Of a stretch of 64,000 bases of DNA, positions 40,001 to 63,895 are shown piece by piece. The notes below the pieces were generated by a model, which ran no database searches, had not been told where the DNA came from, and saw nothing but the letters and a program-made list of their open reading frames with translations. The position numbers and the translations under genes were made by a program. The stretch is from Stella humosa (GTDB lineage: Bacteria; Pseudomonadota; Alphaproteobacteria; ATCC43930; Allostellaceae), in contig NZ_AP019700.1 in the NCBI RefSeq assembly GCF_006738645.1, forward strand, positions 3,360,001 through 3,424,000, in the 5' to 3' direction. The first letter of the stretch is position 1. Every line of letters begins with the position of its first letter.

Positions 40001-40106
40001 CGGCATCACCTTTCGCACTCGGAACCAAGCACCATGCAATTGTGGTTGCGGCGCCGCCATCCCGCGGGGGACGACGGCGCCGCCACCGGACTGCCGCCGC
40101 AGCGAC

Positions 40107-41447: not shown

Positions 41448-41547
41448 CGTCATCCTCCGCTGTTGGCCGTTCCCCCGATTATCGGAGGCGGCCAAGTTAA
41501 GGTCTTTCCGCGCACCGCTAGGTGGCGAATGACTCTTTTTTGTGAGC

Positions 41548-41583
41548 GTCAGTCTGACCCTTTTGGACTTTCCGCTCAAGCGG
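41548..41583. repeat. Two small inverted repeats between the paralogous binding-protein genes
   Basis: GTCAG-t-CTGAC (41548-41558) and CCGCT-ca-AGCGG (41572-41583) lie in the 153-nt gap between the two binding-protein genes, just after the upstream gene's stop. They could act as mRNA hairpins or as operators for the downstream gene. A short T-run (41535-41541 on the plus strand) is on the wrong strand to make a terminator for this operon. Confidence 0.35.
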
Positions 41584-41600
41584 TTTCGGATGGTGGAGGA

Positions 41601-42953: not shown

Positions 42954-43060
42954 CTCGCCACCTCCTGGTCCGCGCGGGCGGCATGTTTCAGCCACGGCGG
43001 AGGATCAACGCCGGCAGCGACCGTCCGGTTCCCTGCGCGGGCCGGCCAGCCGCGACCCCA

Positions 43061-50019: not shown

Positions 50020-50657
50020 CCGCCGCGCCGGCCGAGCCGGCGCGGGACTGCCCCTTCTGCCCGCGGCTGGTGGCCTTTCGTGAGCTGCATCGGGCACGCG
50101 AGCCCGCCTGGCACAACGCGCCCGTGCCGTCCTTCGGGGCGGCCGGCGCGCGGCTGCTGATCGTGGGGCTGGCGCCCGGCCTGCGCGGGGCCAACCGCAC
50201 CGGCCGGCCCTTCACCGGCGACTGGGCGGGCGACCTGCTCTATCCGACGCTGATCCGCCACGGGCTGGCGGTCGGGCAGTTCCTGGCGCGCCCCGACGAC
50301 GGGCTGGCGCTGGCCGGCTGCCGCATCACCAACGCCGTCCGCTGCGTCCCGCCCGAGAACAAGCCGACCCCGGCCGAGGTGAAGACCTGCCTGCCCTTCC
50401 TGGCCGGCGAGATCGCAGCCTTGCCCACTGGCGGTGGCATCCTGGCGCTCGGCCGCATCGCCCACGACGCGGTGCTGACGACCCTGAAGATCCGCAAGGC
50501 GGATTTCCCCTTCGCGCACGGCGCCATGCACGAGCTGCCCGGCGGCCGCTGGATGGCCGAGAGCTACCATTGCTCGCGCTACAACACGAATACCGGACGG
50601 CTGACGCCGGAGATGTTTGACGCGGTGGTGGGGGCAGTGGTCGCGCGGATCGGATAA
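50016..50657 (+). CDS. Uracil-DNA glycosylase, family 5 (UDGb-like)
   Basis: Base-excision enzyme of 213 aa. An N-terminal 'CPFCPRLVAFRE' holds the first cysteines of the [4Fe-4S] cluster, with further Cys in 'ITNAVRCVPPENKPTPAEVKTCLPFL'. Motif A is 'VGLAPGLRGANRTGRPFTGDWAG', in which family 5 enzymes lack the usual catalytic Asp or Asn, and motif B is 'ESYHCSRYNTNTGRLT'. The match to type V UDGb, which removes uracil, hydroxymethyluracil and hypoxanthine, is good. It is co-translated with the NYN-domain protein. Confidence 0.92.
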   Translation: MTAAPAEPARDCPFCPRLVAFRELHRAREPAWHNAPVPSFGAAGARLLIVGLAPGLRGANRTGRPFTGDWAGDLLYPTLIRHGLAVGQFLARPDDGLALAGCRITNAVRCVPPENKPTPAEVKTCLPFLAGEIAALPTGGGILALGRIAHDAVLTTLKIRKADFPFAHGAMHELPGGRWMAESYHCSRYNTNTGRLTPEMFDAVVGAVVARIG

Positions 50658-50778
50658 TATTCCTGGGCGCCACTTGAATGATCTGGCGATCGGCTGCCTC
50701 CAATCTGCATGGCAGGAACCCATCGCGCGCCACAATAGCCCAGGTTAGCCAAAACACGGAACCGCTCAGCGTCGTCCG

Positions 50779-50997
50779 TCAGTCGCGCTTCCCCTTAAAA
50801 AGCGCGACCAAGGCCATCCCGTGGCCTCGGCCAAGGTCGAAGTCATGTTTCAGCCAATCGAGGATCTCTCCCGCCTTCACCCCGGGGCGGACGCCGTCGG
50901 CATCGCAAAAGCCCTTCTCCCGGGCCATAGCCTTGAATGCGGCGGGCGACTTGCCCGTCTTCGCCTCAATATTGTCGAGATACGCCTGAAACGACAT
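50779..50997 (-). CDS. DUF4287 domain small protein
   Basis: Protein of 72 aa that matches the DUF4287 pattern: 'FQAYLDNIEAKTGKSPAAFKAMAREKGF', then 'GVKAGEILDWLKHDFDLGRGHGMALVALFKG'. An AAGGAG ribosome site lies 6 nt before the ATG. Function unknown; the domain is helical and found alone or with DUF5655 partners. It lies in a convergent position to the UDG gene. The next gene upstream on the same strand (51099-51446, YjbR-like) is 101 nt away and may share regulation. Confidence 0.85.
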   Translation of the reverse strand: MSFQAYLDNIEAKTGKSPAAFKAMAREKGFCDADGVRPGVKAGEILDWLKHDFDLGRGHGMALVALFKGKRD

Positions 50998-51098
50998 GCA
51001 AGACTCCTTGGTCGGAACGTCAAGATAGTCGCAAGGGGTGCACTTGGTGCAATTCCGGGTCGTGCAACCACAATCGGGTCAGCTTGGGCTCAACTGGG

Positions 51099-51446
51099 CT
51101 ATTGGAACCGCACCTCGTCGAATGCCTTCACAGCCCGCTTCGACGCGCACCCTCGCCAGCGGCGCTCCAGGAAGCGCATGAGCACTTCGGGCGACAGCGC
51201 CCCCAATCGCGCCAGCACGATCGGATAGTCGGCATAGTGCGGTGTCGTGTGGAACACTGCCGGGTCGGCCTCGATCAGCATCGCCCGCTCGTCGATCGGC
51301 ACGTCGTGCAGGGTGATGCTGTCGTCCTCCGGCCGCAGCCGGGTGAGCAGTCGGCCGCGCACCTTCAAGGCGGGGGTGCCGTAGGAGGTGGAAAGCTCCG
51401 CGCCCGGTAGGTCGGCGGCCAGGCGGACGACGTCTTCCCAATTCAT
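51099..51446 (-). CDS. MmcQ/YjbR family protein
   Basis: Protein of 115 aa with the YjbR-like double-wing pattern: 'WEDVVRLAADLPGAELSTSYGTPALKVRGRLLTRLRPEDDSITLHD', then 'HYADYPIVLARLGALSPEVLMRFLERRW'. Start 51446 has GAGGG 9 nt upstream; a longer frame upstream lies over another gene. Function unknown; the fold suggests DNA or nucleotide binding. It is 16 nt downstream of the ROK repressor gene on the same strand and may be co-transcribed with it. Confidence 0.87.
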   Translation of the reverse strand: MNWEDVVRLAADLPGAELSTSYGTPALKVRGRLLTRLRPEDDSITLHDVPIDERAMLIEADPAVFHTTPHYADYPIVLARLGALSPEVLMRFLERRWRGCASKRAVKAFDEVRFQ

Positions 51447-51462
51447 CGATCGACCCTCTGGA

Positions 51463-52677
51463 TCAGAAGTCGAATGCCGAGGCGCCGCCAGCCGCACCCG
51501 TCGCAAGCCGCGGGGCCAGGCGGTGGAACAGCGGCAGGGCGGCGGCACCGAGGGCGGGCGTCTCCGGCCCCAGGCCAGCCTCGATCAGGCGCGGCATGGC
51601 GCGGCCCGGGCGGGCGGCGACGCTGGGCGGCAAGGGTTCAAGCCGGGCGAGGAAGGTCCGACGCATGGCCGGGGGCAGCAGGCCGCCGAGGATGACGGTC
51701 TCCGGGTCCAGCAGGTTCTCGATGTTGGCGAGCGCCGCGCGGAAATGGCCCGCGGCATCGCTTAGCCAGGCGTCGAGCGTCGGCTCGCCGGCCAGGAAGG
51801 CGGCCTCCAGCCGGGCCGGGTCGATGTCGGAGGCGTCCGCGTCCGGGCCGGCCACCGCGGCATGGGCGGCGGCCAGGGAGACATAGCGTTCCAGGCACCC
51901 GTGGTTGCCGCAGAGGCAGGGCCGGCCGCCGGGCACGACCACCATGTGGCCCAGTTCGCCCGCCCGGCCGCCCGCCCCGCGATGGGGCTGGCCGCCGGTG
52001 ATGATGCCGGCCCCCAGGCCGACGCCGAAATAGACATAGACGAAGTCCCGCAAGTCGCGCCCGGCACCATAGAGCCGCTCGCCGACGGCGGCGGCCGTCG
52101 CGTCGTTCTCGACCAGGACCGGCATCTCCAGCAGCGCCGACAGCCGTTCGGTCAGGGGGAAGCCGTCCCAGGCCGGCAGGCTGGTGGGGCCGAAGGAGAC
52201 GGGGCTGCCGGCCTCGAACAGGGTCGGCATGACGACGCCCGCCCCCAGGATGCGGGCCCCCTCCACGCGGCCCGCCCGCCGCAGGCGGGCGACCGCATCG
52301 GCCATCAGCGGCAATGCCGCGGCCGGCGTCGGGGCGGCGGTGGCGATCTCCACCTCGGCGCGGCGCTCGCCGGCCAGGTCGACGAGGACGGCAACCAGCC
52401 GACGGTGGTCCAGCGACAGGCCGATGGTGAAGCCGCCGCCGGGGTTGATCGCCAGTTCGATCGGCGGCTGGCCGCGCCCGCCCGTCCGCCGGCCGGATGC
52501 CACCAGCAGCCCCGCGCCCAGCAGCTCCTCGGCGATGTTGGACACCGTCTGCGCCGACAGGCCGGTCGCCCGCGCGATCTCGGCGCGCGAGATGGCGCCG
52601 CTGGTCCGCACGGTCTCGACCACCACCCGGCGGTTGTAGCTGCGTGCATGCTCGAGGTTGGTCCCGGCCAGGGCCAT
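51463..52677 (-). CDS. ROK family transcriptional repressor (NagC/Mlc/XylR type)
   Basis: Regulator of 404 aa. The N-terminal winged helix-turn-helix is at about residues 20-75 ('GAISRAEIARATGLSAQTVSNIAEELLGAGLL'). The ROK sugar-binding domain follows with 'VENDATAAAVGERLYGAG', 'GVGLGAGIITGGQPHRGAGGRAGELGHMVV', and the zinc motif 'CLCGNHGCLERYVS'. It faces the sugar operon across 99 nt that contain a palindrome, so it most likely represses that operon and itself until its sugar or sugar phosphate binds. Confidence 0.93.
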   Translation of the reverse strand: MALAGTNLEHARSYNRRVVVETVRTSGAISRAEIARATGLSAQTVSNIAEELLGAGLLVASGRRTGGRGQPPIELAINPGGGFTIGLSLDHRRLVAVLVDLAGERRAEVEIATAAPTPAAALPLMADAVARLRRAGRVEGARILGAGVVMPTLFEAGSPVSFGPTSLPAWDGFPLTERLSALLEMPVLVENDATAAAVGERLYGAGRDLRDFVYVYFGVGLGAGIITGGQPHRGAGGRAGELGHMVVVPGGRPCLCGNHGCLERYVSLAAAHAAVAGPDADASDIDPARLEAAFLAGEPTLDAWLSDAAGHFRAALANIENLLDPETVILGGLLPPAMRRTFLARLEPLPPSVAARPGRAMPRLIEAGLGPETPALGAAALPLFHRLAPRLATGAAGGASAFDF

Positions 52678-52702
52678 TCGATCCGTTCCCGCGAAATCCC
52701 GC

Positions 52703-52745
52703 TTGCAGACTGGGTGAGTCCGACGCTTAAATCAATTTGATTGAT
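52703..52745 (+). promoter_or_regulatory. Promoter and palindromic operator of the sugar catabolic operon
   Basis: TTGCAG (52703-52708) and TTAAAT (52727-52732) are 18 nt apart and look like a sigma-70 promoter. Overlapping and just past the -10 is ATCAAT-TTG-ATTGAT (52731-52745), a perfect palindrome that also contains the 11-bp ATCAA-T-TTGAT. An AT-rich palindrome on the -10 of the operon, next to a ROK repressor gene, is a good operator candidate. Binding is inferred. Confidence 0.45.
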
Positions 52746-52776
52746 GAATTCGGGCCCGGCCCTGGGAGAGCAATCC

Positions 52777-54021
52777 ATGACCCGTTCGACGCTGCCCGTC
52801 CTGCGCATCGGCTTCATCGGTTCGGGCTTCATGGCCCGCTTCCACCTGCAGTCGCTGACGGGCGTGCGCAACGCCGTGGTGGCCGGCGTCTACAGCACCA
52901 CGGCCAAGCGCCGGGAGGCCTTCGCGGCCGAGGCCAACCGCCTCGACCTCGGCCCCTGCACGCCCTACGACAGCATCGAGGCGATGCTGCGCTCCGGCCA
53001 AGTCGACGCGGTGTGGATCGCCAACCCCAACTATGCCCGGCTGGAGGCGATGGAGGAGATCCATCGCCTGGTGAAGGCCGGTGCCACGCCCTTGCGCGCG
53101 GTCGCCTGCGAGAAGCCGCTGGCGCGCACGCTGGGCGACGCCCGGCGCATGCTGGCGCTGGTCGAGGATTGCGGCCTGCTGCACGGATACCTGGAGAACC
53201 AGGTGTTCTCGACCGCCGTGCAACGCGGCCACGAGATCATCTGGCGGCGCGCCGTGCCGAATGCCGGGCGGCCGTACCTCGCCCGCGCGGCCGAGGAGCA
53301 TAGCGGCCCGCACGAGCCCTGGTTCTGGCAGGGCGAGCAGCAGGGCGGCGGCGTGCTGTCGGACATGATGTGCCACAGCGTCGAGGTCGCCCGATTTCTG
53401 CTGAGCGCGCCCGGCGAGGCGCGCGGCGCCATGCGCCTGGTGTCGGCCAACGCCACCGTCGCCAACCTCAAATGGACCCGTCCGGAATACGCCCGCAAGC
53501 TGTCGGCCGCCATGGGCGGGGTCGACTACACCAAGCGCCCGTCCGAGGATTTCGCGCGCGGAATCCTGACCCTGGAAGACCCCGACGGCAACGTCGCAAT
53601 GATCGAGGCGACGACGTCCTGGGCCTATGTCGGGCCGGGCCTCCGCATCAACCTGGAGCTGCTGGGGCCGGAATACGCGATGGAGTTCAGCTCGCTCAAC
53701 ACGGGCCTGAAGATCTTCCTGTCGCGCGGCGTCATCGGGACCGAGGGCGAGGACCTGGTCGAGAAGCAGAATGCCGAGCAGGGGCTGATGCCGGTCCTGG
53801 ACGACGAGGCCGGCATCTACGGCTACACGCTGGAGAACCGCCACATGGTGGAGCATTTCCGCCGCGGCCAGCAGCCGATGGAAACCTTCGACGATGGCGT
53901 GGCCGTGGTCGAGATGCTGATGGCGCTCTACCGCTCGGCCGAGCTGGGCCAGACCGTGACGCTGCCCGACGAGAACCTGGAGACCTACGTGCCGGTGGTG
54001 GCGCGGCCCGCCGGCCGATAG
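52777..54021 (+). CDS. Gfo/Idh/MocA family oxidoreductase
   Basis: NAD(P)-dependent sugar or cyclitol dehydrogenase of 414 aa. ATG 52777 has GGAGAG 7 nt upstream; a TTG at 52741 lies inside the operator palindrome and is unlikely. The Rossmann nucleotide motif is 'IGFIGSGFMARFHLQ' (about residues 10-24), and the family lysine motif is 'CEKPLART' near residue 111. The C-terminal beta-sheet substrate domain holds 'GGGVLSDMMCHSVEVARFLL', with the Asp/His expected at the active site. It heads the operon, before its binding protein. Candidate substrates are inositols, glucosides or amino sugars. Confidence 0.92.
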   Translation: MTRSTLPVLRIGFIGSGFMARFHLQSLTGVRNAVVAGVYSTTAKRREAFAAEANRLDLGPCTPYDSIEAMLRSGQVDAVWIANPNYARLEAMEEIHRLVKAGATPLRAVACEKPLARTLGDARRMLALVEDCGLLHGYLENQVFSTAVQRGHEIIWRRAVPNAGRPYLARAAEEHSGPHEPWFWQGEQQGGGVLSDMMCHSVEVARFLLSAPGEARGAMRLVSANATVANLKWTRPEYARKLSAAMGGVDYTKRPSEDFARGILTLEDPDGNVAMIEATTSWAYVGPGLRINLELLGPEYAMEFSSLNTGLKIFLSRGVIGTEGEDLVEKQNAEQGLMPVLDDEAGIYGYTLENRHMVEHFRRGQQPMETFDDGVAVVEMLMALYRSAELGQTVTLPDENLETYVPVVARPAGR

Positions 54022-54083
54022 GCGTCCGGCCAAAGGGCCGACGCCGCCCAAGAAGCCCCGCGCGCCAGCAGGAGAGGCCAACG

Positions 54084-55304
54084 ATGAGGAAGACGATTGC
54101 GACCTGGGTCGGCGCCGCCGGCCTGACGCTGACGCTCGCCGCCGGGGCGGCCGGCCAGACCCTGAAGATCACTTACCCCGGCTGGGACAGCAAGGAGCAG
54201 GAGCGCGAGGTCACCGCGATCTTCGCCGCGTACGAGAAGCAGAACCCGGGCGTGAAGATCGAGCTGATCTCGACCCCGTTCCCGGTGATGAAGCAGAAGC
54301 TGGTGGTCTCGCTGCGCTCTGGCGATGCGCCGGACCTGGGCTATCTCGACGGCCGCTGGCTGCCGGAACTGCAGGCCGCGGGCTTCCTGGCCGACGTGAC
54401 GGCGCAGGCCAACGCGCTCGACCGCAAGGACTGGTATCCGGCCGCCTGGGAGCCGGCCACCATCGACGGCAAGGTCTATGGCATCCCCGACCGCGTCGAC
54501 CCGTGGATGGTCTACTACAACACCGATCTGTTCAAGGCGGCCGGCGTCGACCGCTTTCCCGAGACCACCGACGAGCTGGTGGCGGCCGGCAAGAAGATCA
54601 CCGGCAACGGCGTCCATGCCTGGGGCCTGATCGGCACCAACGACGCCACCTTCATCGGCCGCTACCTCAACATCCTCTATGCCTTCCACGGCAACCTGCT
54701 GTCGCCCGACGGCAAGAAGGCCGTCGTCAACGACGCCAACGGCGTGGCCGCACTCGCCTTCTACACCGACCTCCTGATCAAGCACGGGATCGCCCAGCCC
54801 TCGGCCGTGGGCAACAACCACAACGACGTCCGCCAGCTTTTCATGACCAAGCAGGTGGCGATGATCATCGACGGCCCTTGGGCGCGCGGCACGCTGCGCG
54901 AGATGGCGCCGACGGTGAACTGGTCGGTCGGGCGCATCCCGGCAGCGCCGGGCAAGGAACCGCGCTTCACCATGACGTCGTGGCACTACACGACCTTTGC
55001 CGCCGGCAAGAACCAGGCGGCCGTCGCCAAGCTGGTCGCCTACCTGGTGCAGCCCGAGAACCAGGCGCGCAGCGTCGTCACCCTGCCCGCCCGCCAGTCG
55101 GCCGCCGCCCTGCCGCGCTTCCAGACCGACGAGTACAAACCCTGGGTGGCAGCATTGCCGGCCGGCCGCGCCTTCCCCATCACCGACCGCTTCAGCGAGA
55201 TCGCCGACATCGTCGGCAAGTCGGTGCAGGAGGTGCTTGCCAAGCGCAAGGACGCCAAGGCCGCGGCCGACGAGGCGGCGGCGCGTATCGATAAGCTGCT
55301 GTAG
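54084..55304 (+). CDS. Extracellular sugar-type solute-binding protein (family 1)
   Basis: Periplasmic binding protein of 406 aa. Start 54084 has GGAGAGG 7 nt upstream. A Sec signal peptide (about residues 1-24, 'LAAGAAGQ') is followed by 'LKITYPGWDSKEQEREVTAIFAAYEKQNPGVKIELI', the standard N-lobe start of UgpB/MalE-like proteins. 'VYGIPDRVDPWMVYYNTDLFKAAGVDRFPET' and 'QVAMIIDGPWARGT' are also typical. It supplies specificity for the two permeases downstream. The operon's dehydrogenases, isomerase and kinase point to a sugar or amino-sugar ligand. Confidence 0.93.
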   Translation: MRKTIATWVGAAGLTLTLAAGAAGQTLKITYPGWDSKEQEREVTAIFAAYEKQNPGVKIELISTPFPVMKQKLVVSLRSGDAPDLGYLDGRWLPELQAAGFLADVTAQANALDRKDWYPAAWEPATIDGKVYGIPDRVDPWMVYYNTDLFKAAGVDRFPETTDELVAAGKKITGNGVHAWGLIGTNDATFIGRYLNILYAFHGNLLSPDGKKAVVNDANGVAALAFYTDLLIKHGIAQPSAVGNNHNDVRQLFMTKQVAMIIDGPWARGTLREMAPTVNWSVGRIPAAPGKEPRFTMTSWHYTTFAAGKNQAAVAKLVAYLVQPENQARSVVTLPARQSAAALPRFQTDEYKPWVAALPAGRAFPITDRFSEIADIVGKSVQEVLAKRKDAKAAADEAAARIDKLL

Positions 55305-55326
55305 CGGCGGCACAGCTCCAGCGTCC

Positions 55327-55365
55327 CTCGACTGCTCGTTTCGCGCAGCGCAGCGAGCAGTCGAG
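55327..55365 (+). terminator. 12-bp perfect hairpin after the binding-protein gene
   Basis: CTCGACTGCTCG (55327-55338) pairs with CGAGCAGTCGAG (55354-55365) around a 15-nt loop, 22 nt after the binding-protein stop. No T-tract follows and the operon continues, so it probably protects or attenuates the mRNA and sets a higher yield of binding protein than of permease, a common feature of ABC operons. Confidence 0.55.
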
Positions 55366-55415
55366 TGACCCGCCGGCGGCAACAACCGACCAACCGCGAA
55401 CAACGACAGGCGCCC

Positions 55416-56459
55416 ATGAACAAGGACCGTATCCGCATCGCCATGCTCGGCACCGGCTTCATCGCCGAGTTCCGGGCCCAGGTCTATGCCCGGATGCCGG
55501 GCGCCGAGGTGGTGGCGGTACTGGGCCGCGACCCGGAGAAGACCGCTGCCTTCGCCCAGCGGAACGGCATCGGCGTGGCGGCGACCGACCTGGAGGAACT
55601 GCTTCGCTCCACCGATTTCGACGCGGTCGACCTGTGCCTGCCCAACCACCTGCACCGCGACGCCGGCGTGCGCATGGCCGAGGCCGGCAAGCATATCCTG
55701 TGCGAGAAGCCGCTGGGTCGCACCGCGGCCGAGGGCCAGGACATGCTGGACGCGGCCGAGCGTGCCGGCATCGTCCATGCCTATGGCGAGAACATGATCT
55801 ACTCGCCGGACTTCCAGGAGATCCTGGCGGTCATCGAGCGCGGCGTGATCGGCAAGCCGCTATGGATGCGCGGGCGCGAGGCGCATTTCGGGCCGCACTC
55901 GCCCTGGTTCTGGCAGCGCGACCTGGCCGGCGGCGGGGCGCTGATCGACATGGGCTGCCACCTGATCGGCATCTTCAACCTGGCCCTCAAGCAGCAGGCG
56001 ACCAAGGTCTTCTGCCATGCCCCGACCCTGCACCATAAGACCGACTGTGAGGACAACGCGCTCGCCATCCTGAAGTACCCCGGCGGCACCGTCGGCCAGT
56101 GCGAGGCGTCCTGGACGCAGCGCGGCGGCATGGCAGTTGCCTTCGAGGCCTGCGGCGACGAGGGCACCATCGTCTATGACCGCTCCGGCCTGTCGCAGCC
56201 GATCAAGGTCTTCGCCCGCAATGCCCAGACCCGCTATTTCAGCGAGAAGGTGGAACATGACCGCGGCTGGCTGTTCCCGACGGTCGAGGAGTATCGCCGC
56301 TACGGCTACTACGACCAGATCGCCCATTTCCTGGACTGCATCCGCTCGGGCAAGCCGCCGCTGCTGACCTTCCGCGAGGGCGTGGCGGTCAACCACGTGA
56401 TGGATGCGTGCTACGCGTCCGCCCGGTCCGGCGGCTGGGAAGCGGTGCCGGCCGCATGA
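55416..56459 (+). CDS. Gfo/Idh/MocA family oxidoreductase (second in operon)
   Basis: NAD(P)-dependent dehydrogenase of 347 aa. The cofactor motif is 'IAMLGTGFIAEFRAQ' (residues 8-22) and the family lysine lies in 'ILCEKPLGRT' near residue 97. 'GGGALIDMGCHLIGIFNLAL' and 'EDNALAILKYPGGTVGQCEASW' follow in the substrate domain. It is distinct from the first dehydrogenase of the operon (52777-54021) and about 67 residues shorter. Two such enzymes together suggest an oxidation and a later reduction, as in scyllo/myo-inositol or 3-keto-sugar routes. It overlaps the next permease gene by ATGA. Confidence 0.92.
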   Translation: MNKDRIRIAMLGTGFIAEFRAQVYARMPGAEVVAVLGRDPEKTAAFAQRNGIGVAATDLEELLRSTDFDAVDLCLPNHLHRDAGVRMAEAGKHILCEKPLGRTAAEGQDMLDAAERAGIVHAYGENMIYSPDFQEILAVIERGVIGKPLWMRGREAHFGPHSPWFWQRDLAGGGALIDMGCHLIGIFNLALKQQATKVFCHAPTLHHKTDCEDNALAILKYPGGTVGQCEASWTQRGGMAVAFEACGDEGTIVYDRSGLSQPIKVFARNAQTRYFSEKVEHDRGWLFPTVEEYRRYGYYDQIAHFLDCIRSGKPPLLTFREGVAVNHVMDACYASARSGGWEAVPAA

Positions 56460-57370
56460 TCCTCGGCCGGTTCCGCAGGCGGCTGGCGATCGGCACGGGG
56501 CGGACGGCGCTGGGCTATCTCTTCGCCGCCCCGCTGCTGGTCGTGCTGACCGTCGCCGTGCTGCTGCCGGCCCTCTACAACACCGGCGTCGCCTTCTTTC
56601 GCTACAACGCCACGCGCGACACCTGGCGCTACAACGGCTTCGACAATTTCGTCGGCCTGTTCCAGTCCGATGCCTTCTGGAACTCGTTCTGGGTGACGCT
56701 GATCTGGGTCGCGGGCAATGTCGGCCTGCAACTGGTGGCGGGCTTCTGGATCGCGCTGGCGCTGAACCGCATCGTGCGCTTCCGCGGCGCCTTCAGCGCG
56801 GTGCTGCTGATCCCGTGGGTGTCGTCCTTCGTCGTCGTCGCCGTGCTGTTCCTGTGGATCTACCACCCGCAGCTAGGCGTGCTGAACGACCTGCTGCTGA
56901 AGCTGGGGCTCGTATCCAAGCCGGTCGCGTGGCTGTCCTCGCCCGAGTTGGCCCAGGTGTCGCTGATCATGGCCAATAGCTGGAAGTTCTTCCCGCTCGT
57001 TATGATCACGCTCTTCACCGGCCTGCAGGACGTGCCGGGCGAGGTGCTGGAGGCGGCCGAGATCGACGGCGCCGGGCGCTTCCAGACCTTGTGGCGGATC
57101 GTCGTGCCGCTGCTGGCGCCCTCGATCGCCACGGCCGTGCTGCTGTCCACCATCTGGGGCTACAACAGCTTCACCCTGCCGATCATCATGACGGCCGGCG
57201 GGCCGCTCGGCTCGACCGAGATCATGGGCCTCTACATCTACAAGCTGGCCTTCGACGCCTTCGACTTCGGCGGGGCGGCGGCAGCCTCGATCGTGCTGTT
57301 CGTCCAGATCCTGGCGATGGTGGCGCTCTATCTGCGCTTCGCCGACCGCGAACTGGCGCCGGCCGGATGA
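56456..57370 (+). CDS. Carbohydrate ABC transporter permease, MalF/UgpA-like
   Basis: Inner-membrane permease of 304 aa, six helices. It starts at the ATGA overlap with the dehydrogenase stop. 'LGYLFAAPLLVVLTVAVLLPALYNTGVAFFRYN' is the first helix region, 'GVLNDLLLKLGLVSKPVAWLSSPELA' the usual periplasmic loop, and 'GEVLEAAEIDGAGRFQTLWRI' the EAA loop near residues 198-218. It should form the channel with the following MalG-like protein; no ATPase gene accompanies the pair. Confidence 0.93.
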   Translation: MILGRFRRRLAIGTGRTALGYLFAAPLLVVLTVAVLLPALYNTGVAFFRYNATRDTWRYNGFDNFVGLFQSDAFWNSFWVTLIWVAGNVGLQLVAGFWIALALNRIVRFRGAFSAVLLIPWVSSFVVVAVLFLWIYHPQLGVLNDLLLKLGLVSKPVAWLSSPELAQVSLIMANSWKFFPLVMITLFTGLQDVPGEVLEAAEIDGAGRFQTLWRIVVPLLAPSIATAVLLSTIWGYNSFTLPIIMTAGGPLGSTEIMGLYIYKLAFDAFDFGGAAAASIVLFVQILAMVALYLRFADRELAPAG

Positions 57371-58209
57371 GCGGACGGTCGCGCACTGCGCCGGGCCTGA
57401 CGGCGCTGGCCTATGTCTTCCTCGGCCTGACGACGGTGGTGGTCGCCTTCCCCTATCTCTGGATGGTGGCGACCAGCGTGAAGCCGATCGAGGAGTTCTT
57501 CACCTACCCGCTGCAATGGCTGCCGGCGGCGCCGACCGCCCGCCACTACCTGGCGGTGCTGGAGGACAGCCGGTTCCTGCGCGCGCTCCTCAACAGCACC
57601 ATCGTCGCCACCGTGGTGACGGCGATCAGCATCGCCCTGGCGGTCCCGGCCGCCTATGGGCTGGTGCGGCTGGCGGGGCAGCGCGGGCGGCCGATGTTGA
57701 TCGCCATCCTGTCGGCGCAGTTCTTCCCGCCGATGATCTTCTTCATCCCGTTCTACATCCTGCTGGCGCAGGTGAAGCTGCTGAACACGCTGACGGGGCT
57801 CGTCTTCGCCTACCTGTCGGTGACGCTGCCGATCTGCACCTGGATGGTGGCGACCTCGCTGCGCGCGCTGCCGCGCGAGCTGGAGGAAGCCGCCCGCATC
57901 GACGGCTGCTCGGACGTGCAGATCATCTGGCGCATCGTCCTGCCGATCGCCAGACCCGGCATCATCACGGCCGGCATCTTCGCCTTCGTGCTGGCCTGGC
58001 AGGAATACATCTTCGCGCTGCTCTACACGACGACGCCGGCCGCCCAGACCGCGCCGGTGCTGATGTTCTATTACCTGGGCCAGCACCAGATCGACTATGG
58101 CCGGCTGATGGCCGCCTCGGTGCTGCTCAGCCTGCCGATCGCGCTGCCGTTCGCGATCATCCAGCGTCACTACCGGCAGGGACGCAACGAAGGCGGAGTG
58201 AAGGGATGA
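57367..58209 (+). CDS. Carbohydrate ABC transporter permease, MalG-like
   Basis: Partner permease of 280 aa. The first helix ends in 'FPYLWMVATSVKPIEEFF', and 'RFLRALLNSTIVATVVTAISIALAVPAAYGLVRL' is typical of MalG. The EAA loop is 'RELEEAARIDGCSDVQIIWRI' near residues 172-192. Start and stop overlap the neighbouring genes (ATGA at both ends), so it is tightly coupled to the first permease and to the SIS-domain gene. Confidence 0.93.
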   Translation: MSGRSRTAPGLTALAYVFLGLTTVVVAFPYLWMVATSVKPIEEFFTYPLQWLPAAPTARHYLAVLEDSRFLRALLNSTIVATVVTAISIALAVPAAYGLVRLAGQRGRPMLIAILSAQFFPPMIFFIPFYILLAQVKLLNTLTGLVFAYLSVTLPICTWMVATSLRALPRELEEAARIDGCSDVQIIWRIVLPIARPGIITAGIFAFVLAWQEYIFALLYTTTPAAQTAPVLMFYYLGQHQIDYGRLMAASVLLSLPIALPFAIIQRHYRQGRNEGGVKG

Positions 58210-59246
58210 CGATGGACATGGCCACCGACGATCCGGTGGCCGACTATATCCGCGAGCAGCCGGCGGTGGTCGCGGCCACGCTGTCCGCCGCCCGCGCGGA
58301 GCTGACCAGCTGGTCGCCAACCGCGCGCGGCGTGGTGCTGGTCGGCTCCGGCTCGTCGATGAACGCCATCCTGGCAACCGCCCCCAGCTTTGCCGCGGCC
58401 GGGCGCGGGCCGGTGCTGGCGCGCAACCCGACGGCCTTCATCGCCGAGGCGGCAACGCTGGCCGGCTGGGCCGGCCTGGCCGTGATCCTGTCGCAGTCCG
58501 GCGCCAGCCGCACGACGATCGCGGCGGCCGAGGCCGCGCGCGCGGCCGGCATGGCCGTGCTGATCGTCACCGGCGACGGCGCCAGCCCGATCGCAGCACT
58601 CGGCCTGCCGATGGTCGTCATGCCGATCGGAGCCGAGCCCATCGGGCCCAAGACCAAGGGCTTCGGGGCCAGCATCGCCGCCATGCTGGCGGTGGCCGAG
58701 CGGCTTGGCGCGCCGCTGCCGGGGCTGCCCGGCCTGGAGACCGCCCTGGCCGACGCCGTCGAGCCGGCGCGAGCGGCAATGGAGCGGTTCGCCACGGCCG
58801 TGCCGGCCCTCGACTTCCTGATGGTGGCGGGCCAGGGCCGGCTGCTGGGCATCGCCGTCGAGGGCTCGCTGAAGGTGGCCGAGATGGCCGGCATCCCGGC
58901 CGGCGGCTTCGATACGGAGGAGGCGCTGCATGGCCGTTTCCACGGCCTGACGCAGAACAGCGCCGCCATCTTCCTGACCGCCGACGCGGCCGAACGGGCG
59001 GAGGCCGCGCGGGCCGTGGCCGTGCTGGGCAGCCTCGGCATCCAGGCCGGCACGATCGACGCGGCCGGCAGTCCGGGTCTATGCCCCGTGCCCGCCCTGC
59101 CGGCGCCGTTCCAGCCCCTGGCGGCCGTCATCCCGCTGCAATGGCTGGCCTATCACTTGGCGCGCGGGCGCGGCATCCAGCCGGATCAGATGCGCTATCC
59201 CGGCCTTTCGCAGAAGCTGGCGATCAAGACGGACCAGCAGCCCTGA
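58206..59246 (+). CDS. SIS domain sugar-phosphate isomerase/deaminase-like protein
   Basis: Protein of 346 aa with two SIS domains, as in the isomerase half of GlmS and in FrlB/AgaS-type enzymes. Domain 1 shows 'GVVLVGSGSSMNAILAT' (about residues 41-57) and 'AVILSQSGASRTTIAAAEAA', the phosphate-binding Ser cluster. Domain 2 shows 'GIAVEGSLKVAEMAGIPAGGFDTEEALHG', with the Glu and His of the GlmS isomerase site. No glutaminase domain is present. Probable reaction: isomerisation or deamination of an amino-sugar or fructosamine phosphate made by the neighbouring kinase. Confidence 0.88.
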   Translation: MTMDMATDDPVADYIREQPAVVAATLSAARAELTSWSPTARGVVLVGSGSSMNAILATAPSFAAAGRGPVLARNPTAFIAEAATLAGWAGLAVILSQSGASRTTIAAAEAARAAGMAVLIVTGDGASPIAALGLPMVVMPIGAEPIGPKTKGFGASIAAMLAVAERLGAPLPGLPGLETALADAVEPARAAMERFATAVPALDFLMVAGQGRLLGIAVEGSLKVAEMAGIPAGGFDTEEALHGRFHGLTQNSAAIFLTADAAERAEAARAVAVLGSLGIQAGTIDAAGSPGLCPVPALPAPFQPLAAVIPLQWLAYHLARGRGIQPDQMRYPGLSQKLAIKTDQQP

Positions 59247-60169
59247 TGCGTTCGGCCATCGGCATCGACATCGGCGGCACCGCGATCAAGCTGGGACTGG
59301 TCGCCAGCGACGGGCGGGTGCTGGCACGCCGGCAGTTCCCCTTCGACCGCGCGCTCGGCTTCGAGGCACTGGCCGATGCCATCGCCACTGCCGCGAAAGC
59401 CGTCGCCACCGGCCATGCGGCGGTGGGCGTCGGTATCTCGACGCCGGGCTATGCCGACCGCCGCGACGGCACGCTGATCGACGGCACCGCCAACGTGCCG
59501 GCGCTGGCCGGGCGCTCGCTGCCGGCCGCACTGGGCAGCCGGCTCGGCCTGCCGGCCGTCATCGAGAACGACGGCACGGCCGCCACCTTGGCCGAACTGC
59601 GCTTCGGCGCGGGAAAAGCCTTTCGCCGGTTCGCACTGATCGCCATCGGCACCGGCATCGGCGGCGGCATCGCCATCGATGGCCGGGTCGTCACCGGCAA
59701 TGCCGGCGAGCCACCGGAACTGGGGGCCATGGTGCTGGATGCCGAGGGCGAGCGGAACTACAGCAGCCTGCCCGGCACCTTCGAGCATCTGGCTGCTGCC
59801 GATGGGTTCCTGGCGGCGCACCGCCGGCTGTCGCCGGCCGACCCGGCGCCCTCCGTCGCGGCCCTTTTCCAGCGGGACGATGCCGCGGCCGCCGCCGCCA
59901 TCGACGCCACCGCCCGGCGCATCGCCCAGGCGCTCGGGTCGATGATCAACCTGCTGAATCTGGAAGCCTGCCTGCTGGGCGGCGGCGTGTCGGAGGCCGG
60001 CGCCAGCCTGCTCGACGCGGTCGGCCGCCACCTGCCGGATTTCACCTGGCCCCTGCTGCTGGCGCGCTGCCGCCTGCTGCCGGCCGCACTCGGCAACGAT
60101 GCCGGGCTGGTGGGCGCGGCCGCCCTGGCGCTCGACCAGGCAAGGTCAACCGAGCCGGGCCAGGCGTAG
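59246..60169 (+). CDS. ROK family sugar kinase lacking the zinc motif
   Basis: Sugar kinase of 307 aa. The phosphate-1 loop is 'IGIDIGGTAIKLGLV' (residues 5-19), and the catalytic Asp is in 'VIENDGTAATLAELRFGAG' near residue 112. The second phosphate loop is 'AIGTGIGGGIAIDG', and 'CLLGGGVSEAG' is the adenosine motif. Most ROK kinases have a His and a CxCGxxGCxE zinc site after the 'AGE' motif; here that stretch reads 'AGEPPELGAMVLDAEGERN' and both are missing. It is likely still active, with an altered sugar site. Its 3' end overlaps the convergent hpnG by 24 bp. Confidence 0.9.
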   Translation: MRSAIGIDIGGTAIKLGLVASDGRVLARRQFPFDRALGFEALADAIATAAKAVATGHAAVGVGISTPGYADRRDGTLIDGTANVPALAGRSLPAALGSRLGLPAVIENDGTAATLAELRFGAGKAFRRFALIAIGTGIGGGIAIDGRVVTGNAGEPPELGAMVLDAEGERNYSSLPGTFEHLAAADGFLAAHRRLSPADPAPSVAALFQRDDAAAAAAIDATARRIAQALGSMINLLNLEACLLGGGVSEAGASLLDAVGRHLPDFTWPLLLARCRLLPAALGNDAGLVGAAALALDQARSTEPGQA

Positions 60170-60769
60170 TGCCGCTACCGTCAGCGTGCGATCGGCCGAC
60201 CGGCTGGCCGCCGCGAGCCGGAGGAGGCCGGGCAGGTCGCCCGGGCGGCGCAGCAGGGCCGCGAGGAGTGCCGCCGGGCGCAACCGTCCGGACCGATCTA
60301 CCGCCACCAACGAAGCCGCAGGCAAGGCCATGCCCGCGGCATCGACAACCACCCGGACCACGCTGAAGCCGATCCCCCGGGCGGACGCGACGGCAGCCAC
60401 GGCATGGGATTCGCAATCGACCGCCGCTGCAAGCCCGGCCGATCCGCCCTTCTCCGCCCGGCTTGCCATCACCCGGTCGGCGCCGAGCAGCAGGCCGGCC
60501 ATCGGGAACCCCGGCAGTCCCGCGCAGGTCCAGCGGCGGCCCGCCTGGTCGAGCACGGCCGTGGGCACGACGAGGTCGCCCGCCGCCAGGTCGGGCGAAA
60601 GACCGCCGGCATAGCCGAACGACACCAGCCAGTCGGCGCCGCGAGCGGCCAGTTCACCTGCCGCCTGGCGGGCGCCATCCGGTCCTGGGCCGCGACAGGC
60701 GACATCCAGCCCCGCGCCGGCGGCGATCCGCGCCTCTCGCGGCAGCCCGGTGACGATTGCGATCTTCAA
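60146..60769 (-). CDS. hpnG: Hopanoid-associated phosphorylase (adenosylhopane nucleosidase type)
   Basis: Phosphorylase-superfamily protein of 207 aa, matching HpnG, which removes adenine from adenosylhopane during side-chain formation. The frame opens with a TTG at 60769 that overlaps the shc stop (TTGA), giving 'LKIAIVTGLPREARI', the expected N-terminus; no ATG is available. 'LVSFGYAGGLSPDLAAGDLVVP' (about residues 56-77) and 'AVDCESHAVAAVASARGIGFSVVRVVVD' (with the conserved Glu and Asp) are family blocks. It is the last gene of the hopanoid group here. Confidence 0.88.
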   Translation of the reverse strand: MKIAIVTGLPREARIAAGAGLDVACRGPGPDGARQAAGELAARGADWLVSFGYAGGLSPDLAAGDLVVPTAVLDQAGRRWTCAGLPGFPMAGLLLGADRVMASRAEKGGSAGLAAAVDCESHAVAAVASARGIGFSVVRVVVDAAGMALPAASLVAVDRSGRLRPAALLAALLRRPGDLPGLLRLAAASRSADRTLTVAALRLARLG

Positions 60770-62634
60770 CCCCGCCCCACCAGCCGGTCCCAGCGGGCCA
60801 ACGCCCAGATTGGGAAATAGGCCGGATAGCCGCGATAGCGAAGGTGGAAGACGTTGGGAAAGCCGGTGCCGGTGTGCCACGGCTCGTCCCAGAAGGGGCC
60901 GTCTGCCGGCGCCTCGACCAGCCAGCGGATGCCCGCCGTCACCGCCGGATGCCCCGCCTGCCCGCCCGCCATCAGTCCCAGCAGCGCCCAGGCGGTCTGC
61001 GAGGCCGTGCCGGCGCGCGCGAAGCCGCGATGGGCCGGGCGGTAGGTCAGGCCATCCTCGCCCCAGCTTCCATCCGGCCGCTGCGCCCCCAGCAGGTAAC
61101 GGATGCCACCGGCCGCCGCCGGGTCGTCCGTCCCGAGCCCAAGTTCGGCCAGCGCCGACAGCGCCGACCAGGTGCCATAGACATGGTTTGTGCCCCAACG
61201 GCCGAACCAGGAGCCGTCCGCCTCCTGCGCGGCCTGCAAGAAGGCCAGACCGCGGGCCACCGCGGGCCGATCCTGCTGGCGGCCCAGCCTGCCCAGCGCG
61301 GCCAGGCAGCGCGCGGACACGTCGGCGGTCGGCGGATCGAGCAGCGCGCCATGGTCGGCAAACGGGATATGGTTCAGCCGGTGGTGGGTGTTGTCAGCAT
61401 CGAACGCGCCCCAGCCGCCATTGCGGCTCTGCATTCCAACGACCCAGCCGGCCGCGCGCGCGATGGCGGTCGCGGCATCGGAGTGGCCATCGAGGGCCAG
61501 GACCACGGCCGCCGTGTCGTCCAGGTCGGGGTAGTGGTCGTTGCGATACTGGAAGGCCCAGCCGCCCGGCGCCAGTCCTGGCCGGTCGCGCCGCCAGTCG
61601 CCGACCTTGTCCGTCACCTGGCGGTCCAGCAGCCACGCCCGGCCGCGCCGGGTGGCGCCGTCGGTCCCCGCCACGCCTTCCAGCGCCAGCAGCGACAGGG
61701 CCGTGTCCCAGACGGGGGACAGGCAGGGCTGGCAGCGGGCCTCGCCGCCATCCTCGACCACGAGCCGGCGCAGGGCGCTGCGCGCGCAGACCAGATCCGG
61801 ATCGCCCGGCGGCCGCCCGAGTGCCGTCAGGGCCATGACCGCGTTCGCCATGGCGGGAAAGATCGCCCCCAGCCCGTCCTCGCCGTTCAGGCGCTCGGTC
61901 AGGAAGCGCACGGCGGCATCCATTGCCCGCCGCCGGGCGGCGCCGGGCAGCATCGGCTCGGCCAGGCGGACCGCGGCATCGACGGCCAGGAACAGCCGGG
62001 CCCAGCGGTCGGCCGGCCTGGGTGCCGCAGCCGGCGCAGCGAACAGCTCGGCGATGGTGACACCGCGTGGGTTGGCCGCGCGCGGCTTCAGCGCCATCAG
62101 GATCAGCAGCGGCACGATCACGACGCGCGACCAGTAGGCGACCTTGTCGAGGTGGAACGGTGACCAGCGCGGCAGCAGCATGATCTCGACCGGCATCGCC
62201 GGCACCGCCCGCCACGGCACCTGCCCGAACAGCGCCAGCATGATCCGGGTGAAGACGTTGGCCGCCCCCGCCCCGCCCAGCGACAGGATCAGGCGTCGCG
62301 CGCCGGCCATGGCCGGCGCGTCGGGGTCGTCGCCCACCAGCTTCAGGGCGAAATAGGCCTTCACCGTCGCACTGAGGTCGCCCGCCCCGCCATGGAACAG
62401 CGGCCAGCCGCCATCGGCCCCTTGCGCGCGCCGCAGGTAGCGGGCGAGCCGCTGCTCCAGTTGCGGATCGGGATCGCCCAGGAAGTGGTTCAGCAGGATG
62501 TATTCGGCTGGGATGGTAGCGTCCGCCTCCAGCTCGAAGCACCACTCGCCGTCCGGTCGCTGCGCCGCCAGCAAGCCGTCGACGGCCGTCGCCAGCCGCT
62601 GCCCGACGCTGCGGCGAAAGTCAGCGTCGACCAT
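60766..62634 (-). CDS. shc: Squalene--hopene cyclase
   Basis: Membrane-associated triterpene cyclase of 622 aa (HpnF/Shc) that converts squalene to hopene or diplopterol. The protonation motif DxDD is seen as 'DLDD' in 'NDHYPDLDDTAAVVL' near residue 355. QW-type repeats include 'GADGGWPLFHGG', 'PGGWAFQY', 'NGGWGAFDADN', 'DGSWFGRWG' and 'DGSWGEDGLTY', and the C-terminal end 'YFPIWALARW' is standard. Start 62634 overlaps hpnE by 14 nt; a longer frame upstream is within hpnE. Length is slightly shorter than the usual 630-680. Confidence 0.95.
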   Translation of the reverse strand: MVDADFRRSVGQRLATAVDGLLAAQRPDGEWCFELEADATIPAEYILLNHFLGDPDPQLEQRLARYLRRAQGADGGWPLFHGGAGDLSATVKAYFALKLVGDDPDAPAMAGARRLILSLGGAGAANVFTRIMLALFGQVPWRAVPAMPVEIMLLPRWSPFHLDKVAYWSRVVIVPLLILMALKPRAANPRGVTIAELFAAPAAAPRPADRWARLFLAVDAAVRLAEPMLPGAARRRAMDAAVRFLTERLNGEDGLGAIFPAMANAVMALTALGRPPGDPDLVCARSALRRLVVEDGGEARCQPCLSPVWDTALSLLALEGVAGTDGATRRGRAWLLDRQVTDKVGDWRRDRPGLAPGGWAFQYRNDHYPDLDDTAAVVLALDGHSDAATAIARAAGWVVGMQSRNGGWGAFDADNTHHRLNHIPFADHGALLDPPTADVSARCLAALGRLGRQQDRPAVARGLAFLQAAQEADGSWFGRWGTNHVYGTWSALSALAELGLGTDDPAAAGGIRYLLGAQRPDGSWGEDGLTYRPAHRGFARAGTASQTAWALLGLMAGGQAGHPAVTAGIRWLVEAPADGPFWDEPWHTGTGFPNVFHLRYRGYPAYFPIWALARWDRLVGRG

Positions 62635-63895
62635 CGCCCGCCTTCTCCGCCCCCTCCACACCGCAGGCCAGCTCGGCCGCCCGGTCGCCGGAGCGGATGG
62701 CACCCTCGATCGTCGCCGGCAACGGCCCTGCCACCCAGTCGCCGGCCAGGAACAGGTTGGGCCAGGCGGTCCACGGCTGCGGTCGGCGGGCGACGTCGGC
62801 CGGCGTCTGGGCATAGGTCGCCCGCCGCTCCTTGATGACGCGGACGCGTGGCATGTCGCCGGTCAGCCGCAGGGCCACGCGCACGTCCTGCCACAGCCGC
62901 TGGGCCAGGTCGTCGGCATCGGCATCCATGCCGGCATCGGCGGCGCTCGTCGTCGTCGAGGCGACGTCGCCGCGCACGAATATCCATTCGGCCAGCCCGC
63001 CGATCAGGCCGAGCGGCGGCCGCACCCGCTCGGGCAGGCCGTCGACGCGGAAATGGGCATTCAGGATCGCGCGGGTCTCCAGCGGCACCGTCAGGTCGGG
63101 CACGATCTCGGCCGCTGCGGCCGGCGGCACCGCCAGGACCACCACGTCCTCCGGACCGACCGCGACGCTGCCGTCGGTGAAGCGCAGGGCGGCGATCCGG
63201 CCACGGCCGAACTCCAGCCCGCGCAGGCGCTGGTTGAACTCCGCCCGCACCGAGCGGCCGGCGAGCCAGGCCAGGGCCGGGTCGATGAAGGCCGCGTCCA
63301 GGCTGCGGGCCGCCATCAGCGGGCGGCAGGCGGCCCCGCCCCGCAGGAAGGTCTCGCGCACCACCGCCCCCAGCAGGGCGGCCGCGCCCTCGGTCGGCTG
63401 GGCGTTGAGGGCGGCGATGGCCAGCGGCAGCACCAGCGCCTCGTAGAGCGGGTGGTCGTCGGGCACGATCTGGGCGACCGTCTGGTTCGGCCCGGCCAGC
63501 ATCAGGCGGGCCAGCGCCAGATAGTCGCCCAGCACGGTGTGGGGCACGCGCGCCCGCTCGCTGAACAGCCAGAACGGCAGCCGCCCGCGCCCGAGGTCGA
63601 GGCGCCAGCGCCGGCGGTCGGTCAGGTCGATGAAATCGAACTGGGCGGTGGGCGGCCCCGTCAGCTCGGCCGCACTGCCGATGGTCTCGACGAAGCGCCG
63701 GGCCGAGCGGTTGCCGCTCAACAGCAGGTGGTTGCCATTGTCGATGGTGCGCCCCAGCACGGCGTCGAAGAAGCTGCGGCAACGGCCGCCGGCCTGGCCT
63801 GTCCCCTCGTAGAGGCGCACCCGCCGGCCGCGGCCGGTCGCCTGGACGGCGGCGGCCAGCCCGGCCAGCCCGGCGCCCACCACATGCACCGTCAT
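62621..63895 (-). CDS. hpnE: Hydroxysqualene dehydroxylase
   Basis: FAD-dependent amine-oxidase-fold protein of 424 aa. The dinucleotide motif is 'VHVVGAGLAGLAAAVQA' (residues 3-19), followed by 'LYEGTGQAGGRCRSFFD', typical of phytoene-desaturase-like enzymes and HpnE. The C-terminal FAD block is 'NLFLAGDWVAGPLPATIEGAIRSGDRAAE'. HpnE reduces hydroxysqualene from HpnC to squalene, the Shc substrate. Its place between hpnD and shc supports the assignment. Confidence 0.93.
   Translation of the reverse strand: MTVHVVGAGLAGLAAAVQATGRGRRVRLYEGTGQAGGRCRSFFDAVLGRTIDNGNHLLLSGNRSARRFVETIGSAAELTGPPTAQFDFIDLTDRRRWRLDLGRGRLPFWLFSERARVPHTVLGDYLALARLMLAGPNQTVAQIVPDDHPLYEALVLPLAIAALNAQPTEGAAALLGAVVRETFLRGGAACRPLMAARSLDAAFIDPALAWLAGRSVRAEFNQRLRGLEFGRGRIAALRFTDGSVAVGPEDVVVLAVPPAAAAEIVPDLTVPLETRAILNAHFRVDGLPERVRPPLGLIGGLAEWIFVRGDVASTTTSAADAGMDADADDLAQRLWQDVRVALRLTGDMPRVRVIKERRATYAQTPADVARRPQPWTAWPNLFLAGDWVAGPLPATIEGAIRSGDRAAELACGVEGAEKAGDGRR

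Follow-up and report, generated by a model that had tools for sequence, protein, structure and literature searches.

A CUT1 sugar importer operon without an ATPase gene in Stella humosa and the ATPases from which it may borrow

What drives a sugar importer whose operon encodes a binding protein and two permeases, but no ATPase? The question is raised by an operon at 52777-60169 of a 64,000-nucleotide stretch (“the window”; positions 3,360,001 to 3,424,000 of NZ_AP019700.1) of the genome of the soil bacterium Stella humosa ATCC 43930 (AP019700; 5,832,650 bases; PMC6687932), a single contig from a genus since renamed Allostella (PMC12488387). The importer is of CUT1 type, with a family-1 binding protein and two MalF/G-type permeases bearing EAA loops. 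In our view the best explanation, at a probability of about 70%, is that it works on a borrowed ATPase, and that the likeliest partner is the UgpC/MalK-type ATPase encoded at 37027-38121 (minus strand) by a neighboring importer operon. An earlier look at the letters of this DNA without database searches (hereafter, the sequence-only reading) had remarked on the missing subunit and proposed the same ATPase as a shared one, after the manner of MsmX in Bacillus.

An importer operon without an ATPase gene

No MalK-type ATPase is encoded with the importer; the nearest lies 18.3 kb from permease 1, in another operon. In a six-frame profile search of the window, the ATPase-like domain nearest to permease 1 was the one at 37030-38121, and tblastn with two ATPases as queries found no ATPase remnant in 50601-62700, so that both searches bear out the absence first noticed in the sequence-only reading. 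The operon has the same arrangement in S. vacuolata, again without an ATPase, and an assembly error is therefore not the cause. A 552-residue two-domain ATPase (C1:3426463-3428121) is encoded outside the window, beyond hopanoid-type genes and 9.1 kb from permease 1; it adjoins its own binding protein and pair of permeases, and its S. vacuolata counterpart carries oligo_HPY (oligopeptide type). We set it aside as a motor for the importer, since it is of peptide type and has its own permeases.

Every gene that had been named from the letters alone was found at 51463-60169 through Pfam or NCBIfam matches; the operon start given there, 52703, did not hold, the operon proper beginning at about 52777. 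All on the plus strand, its genes encode Gfo/Idh/MocA dehydrogenase 1 (52777-54021; Pfam GFO_IDH_MocA, 62.5 bits), the CUT1 solute-binding protein (54084-55304; SBP_bac_1, 150.9 bits), Gfo/Idh/MocA dehydrogenase 2 (55416-56459; a Pfam match), permease 1 of UgpA/MalF type (56456-57370; BPD_transp_1, 65.8 bits) and permease 2 of UgpE/MalG type (57367-58209; BPD_transp_1, 62.8 bits), each with an EAA loop, a two-domain SIS protein of GlmS-isomerase/NagB-II fold (58206-59246; NCBIfam, AlphaFold model), and a ROK sugar kinase (59246-60169; Pfam ROK, 162.2 bits; NCBIfam ROK_glcA_fam, 143.5 bits, under its cut-off). Gaps of 62 and 111 nucleotides (nt) are followed, from dehydrogenase 2 onward, by overlaps of 4, 4, 4 and 1 nt, and these junctions make a single operon probable. 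The kinase gene ends in a 24-nt overlap (60146-60169) with a convergent HpnG-like open reading frame (60146-61198, minus strand; 153.9 bits against the HpnG cut-off of 187.1), which agrees, at a sub-cut-off score, with the earlier placing of the operon's end against a convergent hpnG. In S. vacuolata (L051) the operon's end adjoins another, patatin-like gene instead (named by eye).

Divergent from the operon is a ROK-family transcriptional repressor (51463-52677, minus strand; Pfam ROK, 152.6 bits), whose N-terminal MarR_2 match (26.3 bits) is slightly under the cut-off of 27. The interval between them carries a conserved palindrome and putative ROK operator, TTAAATCAATTTGATTGAT (52727-52745), which contains AATCAA-T-TTGATT. 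These 19 nt are identical in S. vacuolata amid a diverged repressor-operon interval, and none are expected in shuffles of the window; at up to three mismatches the sequence occurs once in S. humosa and once in S. vacuolata, and it was not found at that tolerance in two other Stella genomes. For dehydrogenase 1 the ATG start is favored over the TTG at 52741, the latter being within the putative operator. The repressor probably binds here and represses the operon.

CUT1 importers and MalK-type ATPases across the genome

Since the genome holds fewer MalK-type ATPases than importers, the lack in this one operon would be part of a borrowing that extends genome-wide. A whole-genome profile search, with a profile built from the 15 permease-1 proteins, gave 15 CUT1 permease-1 genes, all of at least 301.7 bits, the next match scoring 119.2. 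The corresponding search for MalK/UgpC-type ATPases gave six of at least 494 bits (four of them over the cut-off of Pfam OB_MalK, a fifth matching weakly); the seventh-ranked ATPase, at 396.4 bits, has polyamine-type genes around it (read by eye). Each of the six starts no more than 2.5 kb from its own permease-1 gene, which leaves nine of the 15 importers with no ATPase, and no MalK-type ATPase above 400 bits lies away from permeases anywhere in the genome. Six of the nine show no ATPase-like domain in the flanks examined (at least 7.8 kb on each side). For the importer at 4965 kb the nearest ATPase, 5.1 kb off, belongs to another family and has a permease of its own; the one at 2328 kb has a weak ATPase (145 bits) 4.9 kb off, in an adjacent transporter set; and the remaining member is the operon at 52777-60169. 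An inventory of this kind had been suggested as a check on sharing, and its outcome, six ATPases for 15 permease pairs and all six in-operon, speaks for it: with nine importers lacking an ATPase and no stand-alone MalK type, borrowing is forced if the importers work.

The clearest case of borrowing, clearer than the operon at 52777-60169, is a group of four ugpBAE-type importers (L034, L035, L036 and L039; C1 217-220 kb, 3460 kb, 3597 kb and 4965 kb) with a single UgpC, which belongs to one of the four sets. Three of their UgpB-type binding proteins score 564.5, 459.6 and 498.6 bits over a cut-off of 411, and the fourth is slightly under it at 390.8; the permeases of the four sets are 53-66% alike and form one clade (support 100/100). 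The 3597 kb set sits among glycerol-phosphate and glycerophosphodiester-type genes (read by eye).

ATPase-less importers recur in the genus. By the same profile searches they number 6 of 12 in S. vacuolata and 3 of 10 in Stella sp. ATCC 35155, and, judged by eye from the neighbor genes, S. vacuolata shares six and Stella sp. ATCC 35155 three of the nine in S. humosa. Gene counts in a further Stella genome, an assembly of 570 contigs (G002), came to 13 permease-1 matches and seven ATPases. The SIS gene of the operon is present in two of the four Stella genomes. We lean, slightly, toward a picture of “pooled” motors, in which a few in-operon UgpC/MalK-type ATPases would act as hubs for most CUT1 importers (one UgpC for four ugpBAE sets) after the importers shed their own ATPase genes, with a milder form in other alphaproteobacteria, some of which would have stand-alone MalK types.

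Which ATPase could serve the operon

On the explanation that we prefer, the operon would produce a functional CUT1 (type I) sugar importer together with a catabolic route, and its two permeases would dock, through their EAA coupling helices, a UgpC/MalK-type ATPase dimer supplied by another operon. That dimer would most likely come from 37027-38121, and the 217 kb UgpC or the 2640 kb ATPase may overlap with it in this role. The ATPase at 37027-38121 scores 523.6 bits against NF008653 (cut-off 432), and its C-terminal part matches OB_MalK (57.4 bits) and TOBE_2 (34.2 bits) in Pfam.

The choice among these rests first on relatives of the operon, sampled as 12 loci with a relative of the SIS protein, among them S. 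vacuolata, eight Mesorhizobium loci, two Inquilinus loci and one from a metagenome-assembled genome (MAG), Rhodospirillales SV3-B17.1 (L061). In the MAG locus the genes follow the order seen in S. humosa, with one for a UgpC-type ATPase placed first, and the permeases of the two operons share 69 and 66% identity. An orthologous operon with an ATPase of its own, which the sequence-only reading had named as a finding that would tell against sharing, thus exists in a relative, but it gives S. humosa no ATPase. The gene was therefore lost in Stella or gained in the MAG; going by this one full orthologue, loss would be the simpler reading. The arrangement differs in Mesorhizobium, where all eight loci have an ATPase, the Gfo/Idh gene is on the opposite strand, and the binding protein, permeases, SIS protein, ROK kinase and ATPase are all encoded in one direction. 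The two Inquilinus loci (one a short contig) have the binding protein and permeases with no ATPase beside them.

In a tree, 37027-38121 groups with the dedicated ATPases of the MAG and Mesorhizobium operons (support 100/99). It is 63% identical to the MAG ATPase and 62-64% to those of Mesorhizobium; the other five S. humosa ATPases reach at most 57% to the MAG's. Over the groove region (residues 66-156) its identity to the MAG ATPase is 71%, compared with 67% and 63% for the 217 kb and 2640 kb ATPases. From this grouping and identity we favor 37027-38121 as the main partner, a judgment that we regard as evenly balanced.

Several results pull the other way. A wider tree, with 19 further alphaproteobacterial ATPases (one of the 20 loci, L090, was left out, its ATPase scoring below 400 bits), joins the MAG ATPase to 37027-38121 only in a 10-row group (92/91), and there the MAG and Mesorhizobium ATPases fall outside the set of in-operon relatives of 37027-38121. 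The operon's permeases are about 30% identical to the permeases that 37027-38121 serves in its own operon, a figure equaled by the 2640 kb importer, and that own importer is also present in other families. Comparing the EAA regions, permease 1 matches the importer of 37027-38121 at 16/39, the 217 kb importer at 19/39 and the 2640 kb importer at 17/39, and permease 2 at 16/39, 11/39 and 19/39, respectively. This comparison, one of the checks that had been suggested, does not point to 37027-38121; as a guide to the partner the EAA loops single out no ATPase, and for permease 1 the importer of 37027-38121 has the lowest count. Of the proposal that 37027-38121 is shared, then, the sharing is backed by the inventory and the pairing is favored by the tree, but not by the EAA loops.

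Two further lines were weighed. At the MsmX interface positions discussed in passages of PMC7658222 (K74, D77, N84, R104, E110 and K154), 37027-38121 has K, D, N, K, E and K, five of the six, which speaks for it. N84 (the FQN residue), however, occurs in 18 of the 19 other ATPases sampled from the class, all high-scoring and mostly with their own importers; so widespread a residue is no marker of sharing, and the signature is rejected as proof of it. Proximity is rejected as evidence and says little, because the ATPase operon, which lies beside acpS/lepB/rnc/era-like genes (by eye) in all three complete Stella genomes, keeps these core-type neighbors in Stella sp. ATCC 35155 too, although a search of that genome at E 1e-50 gave no homologue of the SIS gene.

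The foremost alternative, tentative but to be taken seriously, is that the operon borrows mainly from another importer (the 217 kb UgpC or the 2640 kb ATPase) or from several, with no special tie to 37027-38121. Both ATPases, at 551.2 and 502.5 bits, exceed the UgpC cut-off and carry FQN, the 217 kb protein is the sole UgpC beside the four ugpBAE-type sets, and the nearest EAA regions are those of the 217 kb importer for permease 1 and of the 2640 kb importer for permease 2. However, both stand outside the group that 37027-38121 forms with the dedicated ATPases of orthologous and related operons, as well as outside the 10-row group of the wider tree, and their groove regions are less close to that of the MAG ATPase.

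It is improbable that the motor comes from importers of a different class (PotA, FbpC, CysA or peptide type). Candidates are plentiful, with 29 further ATPases in the genome at E 1e-60 or better (profile search) and the peptide-type one downstream present in S. vacuolata too, but most, the peptide-type one included, lie near permeases of their own (by eye), and passages of PMC7658222 report ATPase exchange exclusively within CUT1 importers.

Even less probable is that loss of the ATPase has left the importer silent or in decay, as the ATPase gene present in the orthologous MAG operon and absent in S. humosa might suggest. Its frames are open and tightly overlapping, and a comparison of S. humosa with S. 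vacuolata gives low ratios of nonsynonymous to synonymous substitution rates (dN/dS): 0.13 (binding protein), 0.15 (permease 1) and 0.22 (permease 2). The importer is therefore under selection, purifying in the case of the permeases. The putative operator is conserved, and several of the other ATPase-less importers are retained in other Stella species.

Last comes a dedicated ATPase elsewhere in the genome, co-controlled with the operon, for which the unlinked MsmX of B. subtilis 168 is a precedent (in passages of PMC12632257) but which is largely refuted for S. humosa and hardly credible, there being no MalK type above 400 bits apart from permeases, and the orphan ATPase under the ROK repressor that the sequence-only reading had envisaged not being found when sought in the genome through the putative operator, whose single occurrence (up to three mismatches) adjoins no ATPase gene. 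The borrowed ATPase is, for this last reason, probably outside the control of the ROK repressor.

Known systems, other alphaproteobacteria and the substrate

The mechanism of sharing is known from MsmX; the organism and the scale are new. MsmX of B. subtilis and 37027-38121 are both of MalK type and end in a C-terminal domain like that of MalK; MsmX serves CUT1 importers that lack an ATPase gene. The alignment of the Stella ATPase with 6yir covers residues 1-361 (408.8 bits). Its best PDB match is 7x0q, which we take to be the Clostridium thermocellum ATPase Clo1313_2554 (the code is absent from the passages of PMC9601137). Unlike MsmX, which stands alone in B. subtilis 168 (in passages of PMC12632257), the Stella candidates for sharing are all in-operon. 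The fructosamine operon of B. subtilis, FrlONM with FrlP/MsmX, resembles that of Stella in combining a SIS-fold deglycase, a kinase and an importer, and its own ATPase and the shared one are interchangeable, according to passages of the same paper (PMC12632257); the Stella operon differs in its ROK-type kinase, two added Gfo/Idh dehydrogenases and lack of an own ATPase. Passages of PMC9601137 describe transporter B of C. thermocellum, likewise a cluster without an ATPase gene, whose ATPase, Clo1313_2554, is encoded elsewhere; this organism, however, is Gram-positive, and the ATPase lies outside the importer's cluster. They also describe a Gram-negative case without an ATPase gene, the beta-glucoside transporter cluster of Thermus thermophilus HB8. 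UgpC and MalK of E. coli, in-operon CUT1 ATPases like those of Stella, can replace each other, less efficiently (in passages of PMC7658222), but there each importer has its own ATPase, whereas nine importers of S. humosa do not.

As far as these passages go, tests of ATPase sharing come from Firmicutes, and other Gram-positive bacteria are noted as cases. With 9 of its 15 sugar importers obliged to borrow if they work, and a closed list of six MalK-type candidates, this Gram-negative genome makes the fit of one ATPase to several permease pairs addressable, and the MAG orthologue with its own ATPase provides a matched pair for that question. Counting “complete” ABC (ATP-binding cassette) operons undercounts working importers, and one ATPase knockout may disable several uptake systems.

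For the class as a whole, 143 genomes were drawn and the best 16 and 14 candidates scored. By these thresholds and best candidates, CUT1 permeases exceeded MalK-type ATPases in 33 of the 61 non-Stella genomes that have such a permease, equaled them in 25 and were fewer in three, with one genome (G082; 0 permeases, two ATPases) left out; two genomes with 5 vs 0 and 3 vs 0 (G145 and G076) indicate that the ATPase threshold misses some ATPases. Adjacency was checked for the best-scoring permeases of nine other genomes, chosen mainly for an apparent excess: of 42 CUT1 permeases in 40 stretches, 27 have an ATPase of at least 300 bits within 5 kb (a few of these, at 317-384 bits, may belong to another family), 10 have none and five are at contig ends. 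Given this check, the gene counts are no proof of a class-wide shortage, which they overstate. The sequence-only reading had held shared ATPases to be less often described in alphaproteobacteria. That fits the literature, since in the parts of the open-licence literature consulted no test of a shared CUT1 ATPase in an alphaproteobacterium was noticed, and “msmX” is only an annotation label in passages of two alphaproteobacterial papers; but ATPase-less CUT1 permeases are not rare (10/42 in these excess-picked genomes). A 2006 table in PMC1557990 gives 29 CUT1 ABC genes and 26 complete systems for S. meliloti and 46 and 36 for R. leguminosarum, figures that count ATPase genes and, in the passages concerned, are silent on permeases without an ATPase. 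Stella looks like an extreme case, but one that differs in degree rather than in kind. At two of the 20 ATPase loci sampled, from two other alphaproteobacterial genomes, UgpC/MalK-type ATPases (L095, 5379-6443, and L093, 4819-5913, both minus strand) have no permease gene within about 4.5 kb and are candidates for stand-alone MsmX-like motors. A small alphaproteobacterial genome of 1.6 Mb (G174) has 11 CUT1 permease-1 genes and four MalK-type ATPases by count; the one permease checked there has an ATPase.

The substrate is probably an amino sugar or an amino-sugar glycoside. The “SIS isomerase” of the sequence-only reading is a SIS protein, but not a plain isomerase, as its fold is that of the GlmS isomerase domain and of SIS-type glucosamine-6-phosphate deaminases. 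Its NCBIfam scores are below cut-off for both GlmS (67.7 vs 381 bits) and NagB-II (51.9 vs 430). The AlphaFold model (predicted local distance difference test score, pLDDT, 86.9) superposes on the GFAT/GlmS isomerase domain 2zj3 with Z 36.7 (root-mean-square deviation 2.8, 331 residues aligned) and on the deaminases 2cb0 and 7kqa with Z 35.4 and 33.8; FrlB, unlike these, is more distant (Z 25.5). By its fold, below the family cut-offs, the protein is a probable amino-sugar-phosphate deaminase or isomerase, and together with the ROK kinase and two Gfo/Idh dehydrogenases it points to the breakdown of an amino sugar or its glycoside. The closest solved chains to dehydrogenase 2 are 6nor and 6jw6, presumably dehydrogenases of aminoglycoside pathways. 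We claim no specific substrate for the operon, because the SIS protein and the kinase reach no family cut-off. Between S. humosa and S. vacuolata the SIS gene has a dN/dS of 0.39 (76% identity), the remaining operon genes evolving more slowly (0.10-0.22).

The importer that 37027-38121 serves lies upstream of it, all on the minus strand: permease 2 (38157-39026; gene call and profile), permease 1 (39071-40060; open reading frame and profile), a solute-binding protein (40107-41579; an open reading frame whose homologues accompany the related ATPase in alphaproteobacteria other than Stella) and a second, tandem one (41601-42995; open reading frame). S. vacuolata and Stella sp. ATCC 35155 also have the tandem binding proteins (40107-42995), and a further alphaproteobacterium (L096) has three consecutively.

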